A stretch of 42,391 bases of DNA. It comes from Nitrosopumilaceae archaeon (lineage in GTDB: Archaea > Thermoproteota > Nitrososphaeria > Nitrososphaerales > Nitrosopumilaceae). Of the stretch, positions 29,006 through 33,896 are shown one piece after another (position 1 is the stretch's first letter; every line of letters begins with the position of its first letter). A model generated the notes under the pieces. That model had not been told where the DNA came from and made no database searches. It was given only the letters and a program-made list of their open reading frames with translations. The stretch covers positions 1-42,391 of the forward strand of contig JAHELB010000010.1 of the NCBI GenBank assembly GCA_024644385.1. Reading direction: 5' to 3'. The translations under genes were made by a program, and so were the position numbers.

Positions 29006-29014
29006 TTATTAAGA
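29006..29014 (+). promoter_or_regulatory. TATA box of the ilv-leu operon
   Basis: TTTATTAAG ends 27 nt before ATG 29042. This predicts transcription starting at or near the leader ORF, about 90 nt before ilvB. Confidence 0.45.
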
Positions 29015-29041
29015 CTTAATGAGATTAATTTTTGAAATTAG

Positions 29042-29101
29042 ATGAGCGAAAAATTACAAGACAAATTTGAAAGTTTGTTACTAGTTAATACAGTGCTTTA
29101 A
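29042..29101 (+). CDS. Possible Leu/Val-rich leader peptide of the ilv operon
   Basis: A 19-codon ORF, MSEKLQDKFESLLLVNTVL, ends 29 bp before ilvB. Seven of its 19 residues are Leu or Val, and six of the last eight, which resembles bacterial ilv and leu attenuator peptides. A TATA box stands 27 nt upstream. Its end lies in a 6-bp hairpin (CAGTGC 29091-29096, GCGCTG 29103-29108) that overlaps the stop codon. No T-tract follows, so a classical terminator is absent. It could also be a chance ORF. Confidence 0.35.
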   Translation: MSEKLQDKFESLLLVNTVL

Positions 29102-29130
29102 GGCGCTGAGAATCTTAACACATTAAAATT

Positions 29131-30843
29131 ATGGCGAGTGATTTGGTAAATAAAATGGAAACAATGACAGGGGCAAAAGCCTTGATGACTGCTTTGGAAA
29201 AAGAAGGAGTAAAAGAGGTATTTGGTTTACCTGGGGGTGCCAACCTTCCAATGTATGATGAATTTGCAAGATGTAACATTAGGCACATCTTAACAAGACA
29301 TGAACAATCAGCTGCTCACATGGCAGATGGATTTGGAAGAGTAAGCAGAAAACCAGGGGTATGTTTTGCAACTTCTGGTCCTGGCGCTACTAACATCTTG
29401 ACTGGTATTGCAACTGCACAAGCTGACTCTGCACCAATGGTTGCAGTGACAGGACAAGTACCAGTAGCAATGATTGGGCGAGATGCATTTCAAGAAAGCG
29501 ATATTATTGGAATGGCAAATCCTGTAGTAAAATATGCATTTCAACCAAGACATGCAAATGAAGTTCCTGAAGCAGTAAGAAAGGGATTTTTCATTGCAGA
29601 GACTGGCAGGCCTGGCCCAGTATTAATTGATATTCCAAAAGATGTTCAAACAAACGAAGCTGAGATGACTTTTCCTGACGAATTTAAAATTAGAGGTTAT
29701 CATCCATGGGCAGATCCTGATATGGTTAATGTTGAGAAAGCAATAGATATGTTGCTAAACTCAGAAAAACCAGTAATCCTGGCTGGTGGTGGGGCAATTA
29801 TCTCATCAGCATTTGCAGAATTGCAAGTAATTGCAGAGTTGTTAATGATTCCAGTTGTAACTACCTTTAAAGGAAAAGGATCATTTCCCGAAAATCATCC
29901 ATTATCTCTTGGCCCAATTGGAATGCATGGTCATGCAGAGGCAAATAAAATAATGACTGAAGCTGATTGCGTTTTAGCAATTGGTACTCGTTTCTCAGAT
30001 AGATCAGTTGGGACCTTTGAGGCATTTGAGAAGAGATTAAAGATTATACATATGGATGTGGATCCTGCCGAGATTGGAAAAAATCAAACTACTTCAGTTG
30101 CAGTTGTAGGAGATGTTAGAGCTTCTCTTAGAATAATGGTAAAAATGTTAACGCAAAAGGCCATTAAAAAAACTGAAGATAGCATCTGGCTCAAACATGT
30201 TAGGGAGACAAAAGAGTATTGGAAAGAAAATTTAAAACTCCATCCAGGAGAGATGGGCGCAGCAAAAATTTTGAGGAAACTTCGAGAATTATTACCTCAC
30301 GAGTCAATTGTAACTACAGAAGTAGGTCAGCACCAGATGTGGGCATCATTGTTCTTTGATGTTATTCAGCCAGGAACTTTCTTTAGTTCAACTGGCCTTG
30401 GAACCATGGGTTGGGGATTTCCAGCTGCAATTGGTGCCAAAGTTGCAAAACCCACCGTTTCAGTAGTAGACATTGCAGGTGATGGAAGTTTTTCCATGAC
30501 AGAAAATTCACTTGCAACTGCAGTTCTTGAAGACATCCCTGTAATTGTATTTATTTTAAACAATTTTAGTTTGGGGATGGTTGCTCAATGGCAGAGAACA
30601 TTCTACGGGAGAAGAATGATTGGTGTTGACCAAAAAAATTGCCCCGATTATGTTAAACTTGCAGAATCATATGGTGCGCAAGGACTTCGAGCACAATCAA
30701 TGGATGAGCTAGACCGAGCAATAAAGACTGCATTAGGTAGCGACGTTGCTACAGTAATTGATATACCAATAGATCCTGAGGAGGACGTTTTACCATTTGT
30801 GGCTCCTGGAACTTCGCTTTCAGATATGGTGTTACCGTCTTAG
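29131..30843 (+). CDS. ilvB: Acetolactate synthase large subunit
   Basis: It forms 2-acetolactate or 2-acetohydroxybutyrate, the first common step of valine, leucine and isoleucine synthesis, using TPP and FAD. Seen are the PYR-domain glutamate in LTRHEQSAAHMADGFGR (about residue 55), GPGATN, the FAD region GPIGMHGHAEAN, and the TPP-Mg motif IAGDGSFSMTENSL..NN (about 450-480). 570 residues is normal. ATG 29131 gives MASDLVNKMETM; ATG 29155 is an alternative. First structural gene of the ilvB-ilvN-leuA-leuB operon, preceded by a possible leader peptide. Confidence 0.96.
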   Translation: MASDLVNKMETMTGAKALMTALEKEGVKEVFGLPGGANLPMYDEFARCNIRHILTRHEQSAAHMADGFGRVSRKPGVCFATSGPGATNILTGIATAQADSAPMVAVTGQVPVAMIGRDAFQESDIIGMANPVVKYAFQPRHANEVPEAVRKGFFIAETGRPGPVLIDIPKDVQTNEAEMTFPDEFKIRGYHPWADPDMVNVEKAIDMLLNSEKPVILAGGGAIISSAFAELQVIAELLMIPVVTTFKGKGSFPENHPLSLGPIGMHGHAEANKIMTEADCVLAIGTRFSDRSVGTFEAFEKRLKIIHMDVDPAEIGKNQTTSVAVVGDVRASLRIMVKMLTQKAIKKTEDSIWLKHVRETKEYWKENLKLHPGEMGAAKILRKLRELLPHESIVTTEVGQHQMWASLFFDVIQPGTFFSSTGLGTMGWGFPAAIGAKVAKPTVSVVDIAGDGSFSMTENSLATAVLEDIPVIVFILNNFSLGMVAQWQRTFYGRRMIGVDQKNCPDYVKLAESYGAQGLRAQSMDELDRAIKTALGSDVATVIDIPIDPEEDVLPFVAPGTSLSDMVLPS

Positions 30844-30853: not shown

Positions 30854-31336
30854 ATGTGGGCAATTCTGTCTTTATTAGTTGAAAACAAGCCAGGAATCTT
30901 GTTTAAGATAACTCATATGTTTAGATCAAGAAACTTTAACATCGATAGTATTTCAGTAGGAGTTACTGACAATCCTGAATTTTCACGAATGACTATAACT
31001 ACAATTGGCGATGAAAAGAAAGTAGAACAGATAGTAAAACAACTAGACAAAATGATCGATACCATAGAGGTAAAACAACTAGATGAGCACAAAACCGTAT
31101 ACCGCGAACTGAGTATTTTTAAGATTAAACTAAGTAATGCTAATGATAGTATGGAAATAAACAAATTGGCAAACGCATATGGTGGAAAGGTCCATGACGT
31201 CAAAAAGGGTTCTATGATGGTCGAATTGACGGCCACACCTGACCAGATTGAGGCATTTCAGGAATTGGCAAAACCCTTTGGAATACTTGATGTAGCACGT
31301 ACTGGAGTTGCAGCCTTGCAGAGGAGCGGGGCATGA
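30854..31336 (+). CDS. ilvN: Acetolactate synthase small (regulatory) subunit
   Basis: An ACT-domain subunit that stimulates IlvB and confers valine feedback inhibition in the family. The N-terminal ACT domain is typical: LLVENKPGILFKITHMFRSR, then FNIDSISVG and SRMTITTIG. The second half (about 80-160) ends in AKPFGILDVARTGVAALQR, the usual C-terminal signature. 160 residues is normal. It lies 10 bp after ilvB and overlaps leuA by 4 bp (ATGA), so it is translationally coupled on both sides. Confidence 0.95.
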   Translation: MWAILSLLVENKPGILFKITHMFRSRNFNIDSISVGVTDNPEFSRMTITTIGDEKKVEQIVKQLDKMIDTIEVKQLDEHKTVYRELSIFKIKLSNANDSMEINKLANAYGGKVHDVKKGSMMVELTATPDQIEAFQELAKPFGILDVARTGVAALQRSGA

Positions 31337-32850
31337 GAGTACGAGTCTTTGACACCACTCTAAGGGATGGAGAGCAAACTCCAGGAATATCTTTATCTCC
31401 AGATCAAAAACTCTCCATCGCCAAAAAACTTGATGCGCTTGGTGTTGATGCAATCGAAGCTGGCTTTCCTGTAATTTCTGATGGCGAATTAAAGGCTGTA
31501 AAGATGATTACAAGTGAAGGACTAACTGCTGAGATTTGTGGTTTATGTAGAACTCACAAAAAAGATATTGATGCTGCAATTGATGGAGGGCTAAATTACA
31601 TCCACACATTTATTGCAACGTCTGACATTCATTTGGAGCATAAACTCAAGATGACAAGGGAACAGGCACTGGAGAAAGCAATTGAAGCGATAGAGTATGG
31701 TAAATCACATGGATTACAAGTTGAGTTTTCAGCTGAAGATGCAACCCGAACAGATAGAGAATTTTTAAAAAAAGTTTTCAGCGAAGTAGCCAAAGCCGGA
31801 GCTGATAGAATCGACATCCCAGACACTGTAGGATATGCAACACCCGAATACATTTCACAAATTACCAGAGATTCAATTGAAGCTACGCACCTTCCAATTA
31901 GTTTACATTGTCACAACGATTTTGGTCTAGCAGTTGCAAATGCTCTTGCTGGAATTAGAGCAGGGGCACAATGCGCGCATGTTACAATTAATGGAATTGG
32001 AGAGCGTGCCGGAAATGCATCTTTGGAAGAATTTGCAATGGCATTACAATGTTTGCAGTGGGATCAAAAATATGAAACAGGAATAAAGTCTCAATTAATT
32101 TATGAAACGTCTAGGTATGTCTCCAGTCTTGTTGGTGTACAAGTACAGCCAAACAAAGCAATTGTTGGTGATAATTCATTTGGCCACGAATCAGGAATTC
32201 ATACTCATGGTGTGCTGAGTAATCCGTTGACTTACGAACCAATTTCTCCAGAACTTGTTGGGAGAAAACGATGGCTCCAAGTAGGAAAACATGCTGGAAT
32301 TCATGGAATGAATGCAATGCTTGAAGAATATGGAATTAAACCTTCTACAGATCAATCAAAAGAGATTCTTGATAAAGTAAAGATTCTAGGAGACCAAGGA
32401 AAACAAGTTTCTGATGTAGAGTTACTATCAATTGCATCTGAGGTTTTAGGTGATTCGGGAATTAAACGAATAGTTCATCTTACAGGCTTTTCAGTATCTA
32501 CTGGGATTGGAACCATGCCCTATGCTTTTGTTAAACTCAACATTGATGGGGAAGATCACATTGGAACTGATTATGGTGTAGGGCCAGTTGACGCTGCGTT
32601 GAATGCAATCCAAAAGATCACTGGAAAGATTTCTGAAATTAGAATTAAAGACTATGGTTTAGCATCGATTTCTGGGGGCTCTACTGCACTGTGTGAAGTA
32701 ACTGTCAAAGTGGAGGATGCAGATAGAAACAAGGTCTCTGCAAAATCCGTTGGTGAGGATATCGTAACTACAAGTGTTCAAGCAGTAATTGATGGAATCA
32801 ATAGAATTATGCTTAAAAAAATGCTGAAAGAAAAACTAGCTAAAAACTAA
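31333..32850 (+). CDS. leuA: 2-Isopropylmalate synthase
   Basis: It condenses acetyl-CoA with 2-oxoisovalerate, the first committed step to leucine. The HMGL-like TIM barrel shows FDTTLRDGEQTPGISL at the N-terminus and LHCHNDFGLAVANAL near residue 195, with the metal-binding H-x-H; then GERAGNASLEE. The C-terminal LeuA dimer domain (about 380-505) with SISGGSTALCEVTVK is the leucine-sensing part. A (R)-citramalate synthase role (isoleucine from pyruvate) is the main alternative and is hard to exclude by sequence. It overlaps ilvN by 4 bp; GAGGAG stands 6 nt before the ATG. Confidence 0.93.
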   Translation: MRVRVFDTTLRDGEQTPGISLSPDQKLSIAKKLDALGVDAIEAGFPVISDGELKAVKMITSEGLTAEICGLCRTHKKDIDAAIDGGLNYIHTFIATSDIHLEHKLKMTREQALEKAIEAIEYGKSHGLQVEFSAEDATRTDREFLKKVFSEVAKAGADRIDIPDTVGYATPEYISQITRDSIEATHLPISLHCHNDFGLAVANALAGIRAGAQCAHVTINGIGERAGNASLEEFAMALQCLQWDQKYETGIKSQLIYETSRYVSSLVGVQVQPNKAIVGDNSFGHESGIHTHGVLSNPLTYEPISPELVGRKRWLQVGKHAGIHGMNAMLEEYGIKPSTDQSKEILDKVKILGDQGKQVSDVELLSIASEVLGDSGIKRIVHLTGFSVSTGIGTMPYAFVKLNIDGEDHIGTDYGVGPVDAALNAIQKITGKISEIRIKDYGLASISGGSTALCEVTVKVEDADRNKVSAKSVGEDIVTTSVQAVIDGINRIMLKKMLKEKLAKN

Positions 32851-32882: not shown

Positions 32883-33896
32883 ATGTACAAAATATCATTA
32901 ATAACAGGAGATGGTATTGGCCCAGATCTTTCTAATTCTGCAGTTTCTATACTAAATACCATAAACGATAAACTTGGTTTAAAATTTGATATAAAAAATT
33001 TGCAGGCAGGGGACAAGGCCTTAAAAGAAACAGGAAAGGCCCTTCCCGATGAAACAATAAATGCCATCAAAAAATCTGATGCATGTCTTAAAGCACCCGT
33101 AGGTGAAAGTGCCGCAGACGTTATTGTTGCTTTGCGGAGAATGCTTGATCTTTATGCAAACATACGACCAGCAAAATCATACCCTCACATGCCCGCTTTG
33201 CAGAATGATATAGATCTGGTTATTGTAAGGGAAAATACTGAGGATCTCTACACTGGTAAAGAATTTAGCCTAGGAGATTCCGCTGTTGCCTTGCGTATAA
33301 TTTCAGAAGCTGCATCCAAACGTATTGCAAAATATGCATTTGAAACTGCCAAGCAAAGGGATTTAATGAAAAAGGTAACGTGTGTACATAAATCTAATGT
33401 TATGAGAATAACTGATGGATTATTTGCAAAATCATGTTCAGAAATTGCTAAAAAATATCCAAATATTCATTTTGAAGAAATGTATGTAGACGCATGTGCC
33501 ATGAATTTAGTACGTCAACCAAATCAGTTTGATGTTATAGTTACTACCAATTTATTTGGAGATATTTTGTCAGACGAATCATCGCAGGTCGTCGGCGGTC
33601 TGGGGATGGCTCCAGCAGCTAATATTGGAGATAATTTTGCATTGTTTGAACCTGTACATGGGGCTGCTTTTGATATAGCTGGTAAAAACATTGCAAATCC
33701 ATCTTCTTTTTTGTTATCCATTAAACTTATGCTTGATTGGCTTGGAGCAAAAAACGACGATTCAAAATGTATTGAAGTTGGAAAAAGATTAGAATCCATA
33801 ATTTTTAATTTAGTTAAAGATGGGATTAAAACTAAAGATATTGGGGGAAATAAAACAACATCTGAATTTACAAAAGAAATAACTGATAAATTCTAA
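32883..33896 (+). CDS. leuB: 3-Isopropylmalate dehydrogenase (isocitrate/isopropylmalate DH family)
   Basis: A beta-decarboxylating dehydrogenase: ITGDGIGPDLSNSAV at the N-terminus, ALRRMLDLYANIRPAKSYP with the substrate-binding arginines, VRENTEDLYTGKE, KSNVMRITDG with the catalytic Lys, and NLFGDILSDESSQVVGG with metal-binding Asp. 337 residues suits archaeal IPMDH. EPVHGAAFDIAGK fits an NAD-type pocket. Position as fourth gene of the ilv-leu cluster favours LeuB, but homoisocitrate or isocitrate specificity is possible. No ilvC, ilvD or leuCD genes are in the window. Confidence 0.9.
   Translation: MYKISLITGDGIGPDLSNSAVSILNTINDKLGLKFDIKNLQAGDKALKETGKALPDETINAIKKSDACLKAPVGESAADVIVALRRMLDLYANIRPAKSYPHMPALQNDIDLVIVRENTEDLYTGKEFSLGDSAVALRIISEAASKRIAKYAFETAKQRDLMKKVTCVHKSNVMRITDGLFAKSCSEIAKKYPNIHFEEMYVDACAMNLVRQPNQFDVIVTTNLFGDILSDESSQVVGGLGMAPAANIGDNFALFEPVHGAAFDIAGKNIANPSSFLLSIKLMLDWLGAKNDDSKCIEVGKRLESIIFNLVKDGIKTKDIGGNKTTSEFTKEITDKF

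Follow-up and report, generated by a model that had tools for sequence, protein, structure and literature searches.

A conserved Leu/Val-rich leader ORF upstream of the ilvBN-leuAB operon in Nitrosopumilaceae: a putative archaeal attenuation-type leader

Upstream of the branched-chain amino acid genes ilvB, ilvN, leuA and leuB of a Nitrosopumilaceae archaeon we found a 19-codon open reading frame (uORF) that is almost certainly a real, translated regulatory leader, as judged by comparison with related genomes. We consider it likely that this uORF encodes the leader peptide of the ilvBN-leuAB operon and that expression of the operon is controlled by how ribosomes advance through the Leu/Val codons at its end, and very likely that such control would be exerted by charged Leu/Val-tRNA. 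The analysed stretch of 42,391 nt is referred to as the window. The DNA upstream of ilvB was compared in 181 genomes of the window's class, whose genera and families are labelled g and f (g1, the window's genus; g14, Nitrosopumilus).

The leader ORF is located on the forward strand at positions 29042-29101, with its ATG at 29042 and its TAA stop at 29099-29101, and its predicted product is MSEKLQDKFESLLLVNTVL. Its assignment was based on conservation of the ORF, in-frame gaps, conserved second codon positions and a shuffle control. Direct reading bore out the 19 codons with Leu or Val at six of the last eight positions that the initial annotation had described. The putative regulatory Leu/Val codon block (29075-29098, forward strand) was delimited by the family-wide profile of last codons and by CTA/CTG enrichment. 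A TATA box had also been reported ahead of the ORF and was recovered as TTTATTAAG (P1, 29005-29013, forward strand), preceded by a conserved GAGAATC. The distance from the start of this box (29005) to the leader ATG is 37 nt in the window, and the spacing between TTTAT and uORF start is kept in most of the family (interquartile range 36-37 nt among 113 leaders). Transcription from P1 is predicted to start at about 29033-29036, and because the uORF begins 36-37 nt from the TATA box the 5' UTR would be only about 6-9 nt long. The constant spacing agrees with the prediction of a leader transcribed from an upstream promoter, to which a second, downstream promoter is likely to be added. Also conserved among relatives was the promoter-proximal GAGAATCTTTATTAA, and GAGAATCTT, which lies upstream of the ORF as part of the promoter, was present in 38 of 71 relatives. 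The sequence TGAGAATCTT, previously noted as a repeat flanking the ORF, was rejected as a regulatory repeat; its copy after the stop codon occurs in the window only and the repetition is fortuitous.

A hairpin around the leader stop codon is present as had been proposed, with 7 bp including one G-U pair instead of 6 bp. This stem, CAGTGCT-TTAA-GGCGCTG (29091-29108, forward strand), has its arms at 29091-29097 and 29102-29108 and encloses the stop codon with the loop TTAA; counterparts were found in other genera. The fold of the whole window leader was not unusually stable (z = -0.6), so support for structure rests on comparison. In the whole window no match to Rfam exceeded the gathering score, either for the T-box or for any other curated leader family.

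The genes downstream, all on the forward strand, were identified as ilvB, acetolactate synthase large subunit (29155-30843; TIGR00118 above cut-off), ilvN, the small subunit (30854-31336; TIGR00119), a leuA-like 2-isopropylmalate synthase gene (31333-32850; NF002085 and TIGR02090 above cut-off) and a leuB-like isopropylmalate dehydrogenase gene (32883-33896; TIGR02088 above cut-off), and the leader codons thus match the pathway. The aligned frame upstream of METMTG contains in-frame stops in g4, g5, g11, g13 and g16, and ilvB therefore probably starts at 29155 and not at the ATG at 29131. With this corrected start the ORF, which had been placed 29 nt before ilvB, sits 53 nt upstream. The ATG at 29131, likely the ilvB start in automatic annotation, overlaps the end of a second TATA-like element and is probably no start codon.

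This second element, TTAAAATTA (P2, 29123-29131, forward strand), keeps a constant spacing to the ilvB ATG across genera. It was found 30-33 nt before the ATG in most marine genera (most genomes of g1, g4, g5, g9, g11, g14 and g17 and about half of g13), was retained in some genomes without the leader, and matches in look and place an element before ilvD. P2 is probably a second promoter giving a leaderless ilvB transcript. Genera g15, g16, g18 and g20 have no P2 and often carry a sequence resembling a Shine-Dalgarno (SD) motif in its place. In a Nitrosopumilus subgroup without leader (L041, L058, L059, L062, L063, L066, L070 and L074), TTTTAAATTATGG or a similar sequence precedes ilvB, as though expression had passed to a leaderless promoter.

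Within the window's family the leader ORF was present in 129 of 151 genomes and in 15 of 19 sampled genera, mostly with a length of 17-20 codons. Its consensus tail, running up to the stop codon, is (I)LLLVDLVL, with LLLLVDLVL in the window's genus and VLLLVDLVL, ILLLVDLLL or LQVVVLL elsewhere; family-wide, Leu prevails at codons -7, -6, -3 and -1, Val at -5, Leu or Val at -2 and Asp, Glu or Val at -4. Candidatus Nitrosotalea devanaterra (LN890280.1) also carries a leader (MTKVDSTSISSILLQVELVL). Among the Leu codons, those rare in the genes of the window were enriched in the leader (CTA 0.32 vs 0.14, CTG 0.21 vs 0.05). Other families of the order (f4, f5, f8, f9, f11, f13 and f14) have ilvB leaders that are likewise rich in Leu, Val or Ile and whose sequences clearly differ, e.g. 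MPHTGSERSRHKVKILVLLLLA, MLSTYSETTSLPVGLLLLVVLLD, MNSIEDIYKRQSGILYLVLLLKVVLLSSVVLQ and MKVVSGCLPNSRLGLTVFVGLTPLVLVVV, each followed by a stop codon. At least six Leu, Val or Ile residues in the last nine codons were found in 64% of the 181 genomes vs 2.7% of dinucleotide shuffles, when the best count among the short ORFs that end shortly before ilvB was taken, with identical selection for the shuffles. As a negative control, no Leu/Val-rich ORF was found before ilvD, a gene of the same pathway, in 26 genomes. The leader has been lost in about 15 of 61 Nitrosopumilus genomes and in g3, g7, g8 and g22, and no obvious ilvB leaders were seen in Methanosarcinaceae relatives. The comparison across Nitrosopumilales suggested in the initial annotation thus found the ORF, its Leu/Val tail, its distance from the promoter and a stem that spans or follows the stop codon all kept. 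On this comparative evidence neither the leader ORF nor the hairpin across its stop codon is a product of chance; both are real.

The pattern of change in the uORF is that of a translated sequence. Gaps within it are multiples of three, while the spacers outside vary freely. Single-base codon changes among close relatives fell on codon positions 1, 2 and 3 in the numbers 61, 11 and 54, and 60 of these 126 were synonymous (0.48 vs 0.35 expected, p = 0.002, with pairs that are not fully independent). Averaged per changed codon, the BLOSUM score was +0.53 in frame; the two other frames scored -1.67 and -1.07, and permuted columns gave -0.81 ± 0.45. Comparison thereby showed the leader ORF to be under selection as a coding sequence.

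Two alternative stems tie the sequence after the stop codon to the uORF. In stem A the post-stop sequence pairs with the uORF start, as GAGCACA/TGTGCTC and variants in Nitrosopumilus, g11 and g5, and in g4 (GACCACA/TGTGGTC) and g17 (GACTGA/TCAGTC) it is remade from different bases immediately ahead of the start codon. Covariation of stem A in Nitrosopumilus and its neighbours was strong: its positions were paired in 83% of cases vs 77% in shuffles, with 30 double-changed cells vs 11 ± 3; neither value was reached in any of 2000 controls in which partners were shuffled between species, a control that does not remove relatedness between species. In stem B, which takes the place of stem A in the window's genus, Nitrosotalea and others, the post-stop sequence pairs with the last codons and the stop codon (GCTGTA/TACAGC in g2, g13, g15, g16 and g18), scoring above shuffled sequence in g2, g13, g15 and g16. 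The two stems share the post-stop arm and usually one of them is strong in a given genus. The GTGC/GCAC core of the window hairpin recurs in about half of the g1 species; the simple stop-hairpin score of g1 was not above shuffles, in a scan that did not pick up g1 hairpins with an earlier-ending 5' arm. Covariation of the stem, proposed earlier as a check, was thus seen as compensatory changes in several genera, but the form of the stem varies by genus and is moderately conserved in the window's own. Consensus folds per genus gave weak support for a further hairpin inside the coding part (g15/g18, g16), and in g15 and g16 the GAC/GAG codons encoding Asp or Glu at -4 are part of a helix predicted for the leader. 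For whole leaders, folding stability mostly lacked significance (z between +0.7 and -2.6) and was therefore not used as evidence.

A run of at least four T within 30 nt after the stop codon followed 55% of leaders vs 21% of shuffles. The terminator arrangement of a hairpin with a U-run is present in form in g16, where GCGCTGTA/TACAGCGC is followed by ATTTTTG, and in part in most genera. The absence of a T-tract, remarked on in the initial annotation, applies to the window and to most members of its genus but not to most genera; without a U-run, the window does not show the stable hairpin plus U-run of a terminator.

Taken together, the conserved ORF, the Leu/Val tail, the promoter spacing and the stem support the earlier reading of an attenuation-type leader, and we propose the following course of events. 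Comparison places the uORF close to the 5' end predicted for P1 transcripts, with a stem tying the post-stop sequence to its last or first codons. When charged Leu- and Val-tRNA are ample, the ribosome would finish the uORF and leave, the stem would form, and in most genera RNA polymerase would terminate at the U-tract behind it. Under a shortage of Leu- or Val-tRNA, the ribosome would stall in the last 5-8 codons and cover both the stop region and an arm of the stem with its footprint, and transcription would run on into ilvB. In the window's lineage a basal level of ilvB would come from the leaderless promoter P2, which, being downstream of the leader, would dilute leader control. The anatomy fits this course, with Leu/Val codons packed against the stop, a suitable stall distance, rare Leu codons and a U-tract. 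Against it count the lack of a U-tract in the window and in the greater part of g1, the fold z of -0.6, the g1 hairpin score, the variable form of the stem and the loss of the leader in some lineages. For the controlled step we give transcription termination an even chance, and regard translation or RNA stability as a somewhat doubtful, still sizeable possibility. That the outcome is premature termination and not altered translation is something we infer, most weakly for the window itself.

An attenuation of translation, in which a stalled ribosome refolds the RNA and frees the ilvB start or its SD sequence, or in which reinitiation takes place, would need no termination at all. It would suit the window, which has no U-tract, and the SD-like GGTGA that leader transcripts of g2, g5, g16, g17, g18 and g20 would carry ahead of the ilvB start as corrected. 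We nevertheless think it rather unlikely, since the SD and start lie outside stems in the folds made, some 30-70 nt separate the uORF stop from ilvB, which is far for simple coupling, and a U-tract is present in most genera. The peptide itself might instead be the signal, as a nascent-chain arrest peptide or small protein, which would account for the conserved acidic residue in LLLV(D/E)LVL; of about 129 leaders, 66 have Asp or Glu at codon -4. Yet the leaders of other families have Leu/Val richness in common and not sequence, the position is Val in many Nitrosopumilus, and the location of the GAC/GAG codons within the predicted helix of g15 and g16 may itself explain their conservation; a role of the peptide as such is therefore improbable.

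Two further explanations would leave the uORF without a function. If it were an inert by-product of short-UTR transcription from P1, with ilvB expressed mainly from the leaderless P2 transcript, the constant spacing of P2 and its retention in some leader-less genomes would be expected, but the conserved Leu/Val codons, the covarying stems and the leaders of genera without P2 (g15, g16, g18 and g20) would go unexplained, so that we hold it to be very improbable. Barely credible is a conserved block that acts as DNA operator for a transcription factor with an incidental ORF: the conserved promoter-proximal sequence and the short repeats of the window could be read in this way, but substitutions are structured by codon, uORF gaps come in threes, changes keep the pairing between two distant arms, and the second repeat copy exists in the window only. 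A leader read by the ribosome remains our preferred reading.

Outside the window we made related observations at trpE and hisG. In 48 of 51 trpE genes sampled over the class a start codon opens a mini-ORF, mostly MG(D/G/E)xxW, of the form ATG-GGT-Gxx-xxx-xTT-TGG in frame 0, while the TrpE frame is open from TTT-GG in +1; the xTT-TGG of the mini-ORF coincides with the TTT-GG that opens the conserved TrpE frame one base ahead. Loci with this arrangement include L223, L224, L225, L233, L237, L280, L284, L286, L291, L295, L298 and others. Eight of these genes (f5, f9 and f14) lack any ATG, GTG or TTG in the frame of TrpE, and in six of the eight a stop codon immediately precedes TTT-GG. In all eight a +1 frameshift at the Trp codon seems to be required; in the remaining genes the GTG within ATGGGTG could be an in-frame start. 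Such a frameshift would make TrpE synthesis sensitive to Trp-tRNA, and the site is a candidate for Trp-sensing programmed +1 frameshifting. The accessible part of a large frameshifting review (PMC5009743) does not mention trpE. Several genera share a recurrent palindrome ahead of trpE, AAAGGTACCGTAC(T/C)ATACCGTAA (e.g. L232, L233, L241 and L246), which is possibly a regulator site. ORFs with at least two Trp codons before trpE were absent except for one, probably a piece of an upstream gene, and ORFs with at least three His codons before hisG were absent except for one in family f5. Upstream of hisG in L198, L217 and L220 (genomes G309, G377 and G318) we found the mini-ORFs MEDYLHKK..., MRDYLHTR and MGDYVHKL, the latter two complete to the stop codon, with His at codon 6, which in these deeper lineages of the order may be His-sensing leaders.

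For bacteria, leader-peptide attenuation is textbook knowledge. In the literature searched, which included few subscription journals, it was found for bacteria only and for no archaeon. If our reading is true, the ammonia-oxidising archaea, which are among the commonest microbes of sea and soil, use translation-dependent control, suggesting how amino-acid synthesis could be regulated without a dedicated repressor. The region offers a concrete RNA element that can be tested, and in nature both the U-tract and the leader itself are present in some genomes and missing from others. In archaea, transcription terminates at uridine-rich tracts, intrinsically or dependent on aCPSF1, and a hairpin is no strict requirement (PMC7515710). 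The U-tract that most genera carry behind the leader would be a terminator of this kind, with the difference that termination would here be conditional on uORF translation, a use not found in the literature searched. Bacterial translational attenuation as in ermCL/ermC (PMC10219788) is alike in that stalling on a uORF would remodel the RNA before the main gene, but there the stalling depends on a drug and here it would depend on amino-acid codons, and SD sequestration was absent in the folds made. With the bacterial ilv/leu attenuators (ivbL, ilvL, leuL and ilvBNC of C. glutamicum; PMC11857589) the leader shares a short upstream ORF with clustered end-product codons, here conserved under coding selection, as well as a predicted upstream promoter, a stem at the ORF end and the same operon. 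It differs in its archaeal TATA promoter, its predicted very short 5' UTR, its terminator-like element, which is weaker or, in the window, absent, and its stem, which pairs with the uORF start or end; no Rfam family matches. We do not assign it to that class, because the terminator feature is lacking in the window and the regulation is putative; that the archaeal leader works like a bacterial ilv/leu attenuator is nonetheless the best reading of the sequence evidence. It is an evenly balanced proposition that the class reads its amino-acid supply via translating ribosomes at several loci, through the ilvB leader, the trpE +1 frameshift and the hisG mini-ORFs. If true, this would represent an archaeal counterpart of bacterial attenuation that is built from different parts.
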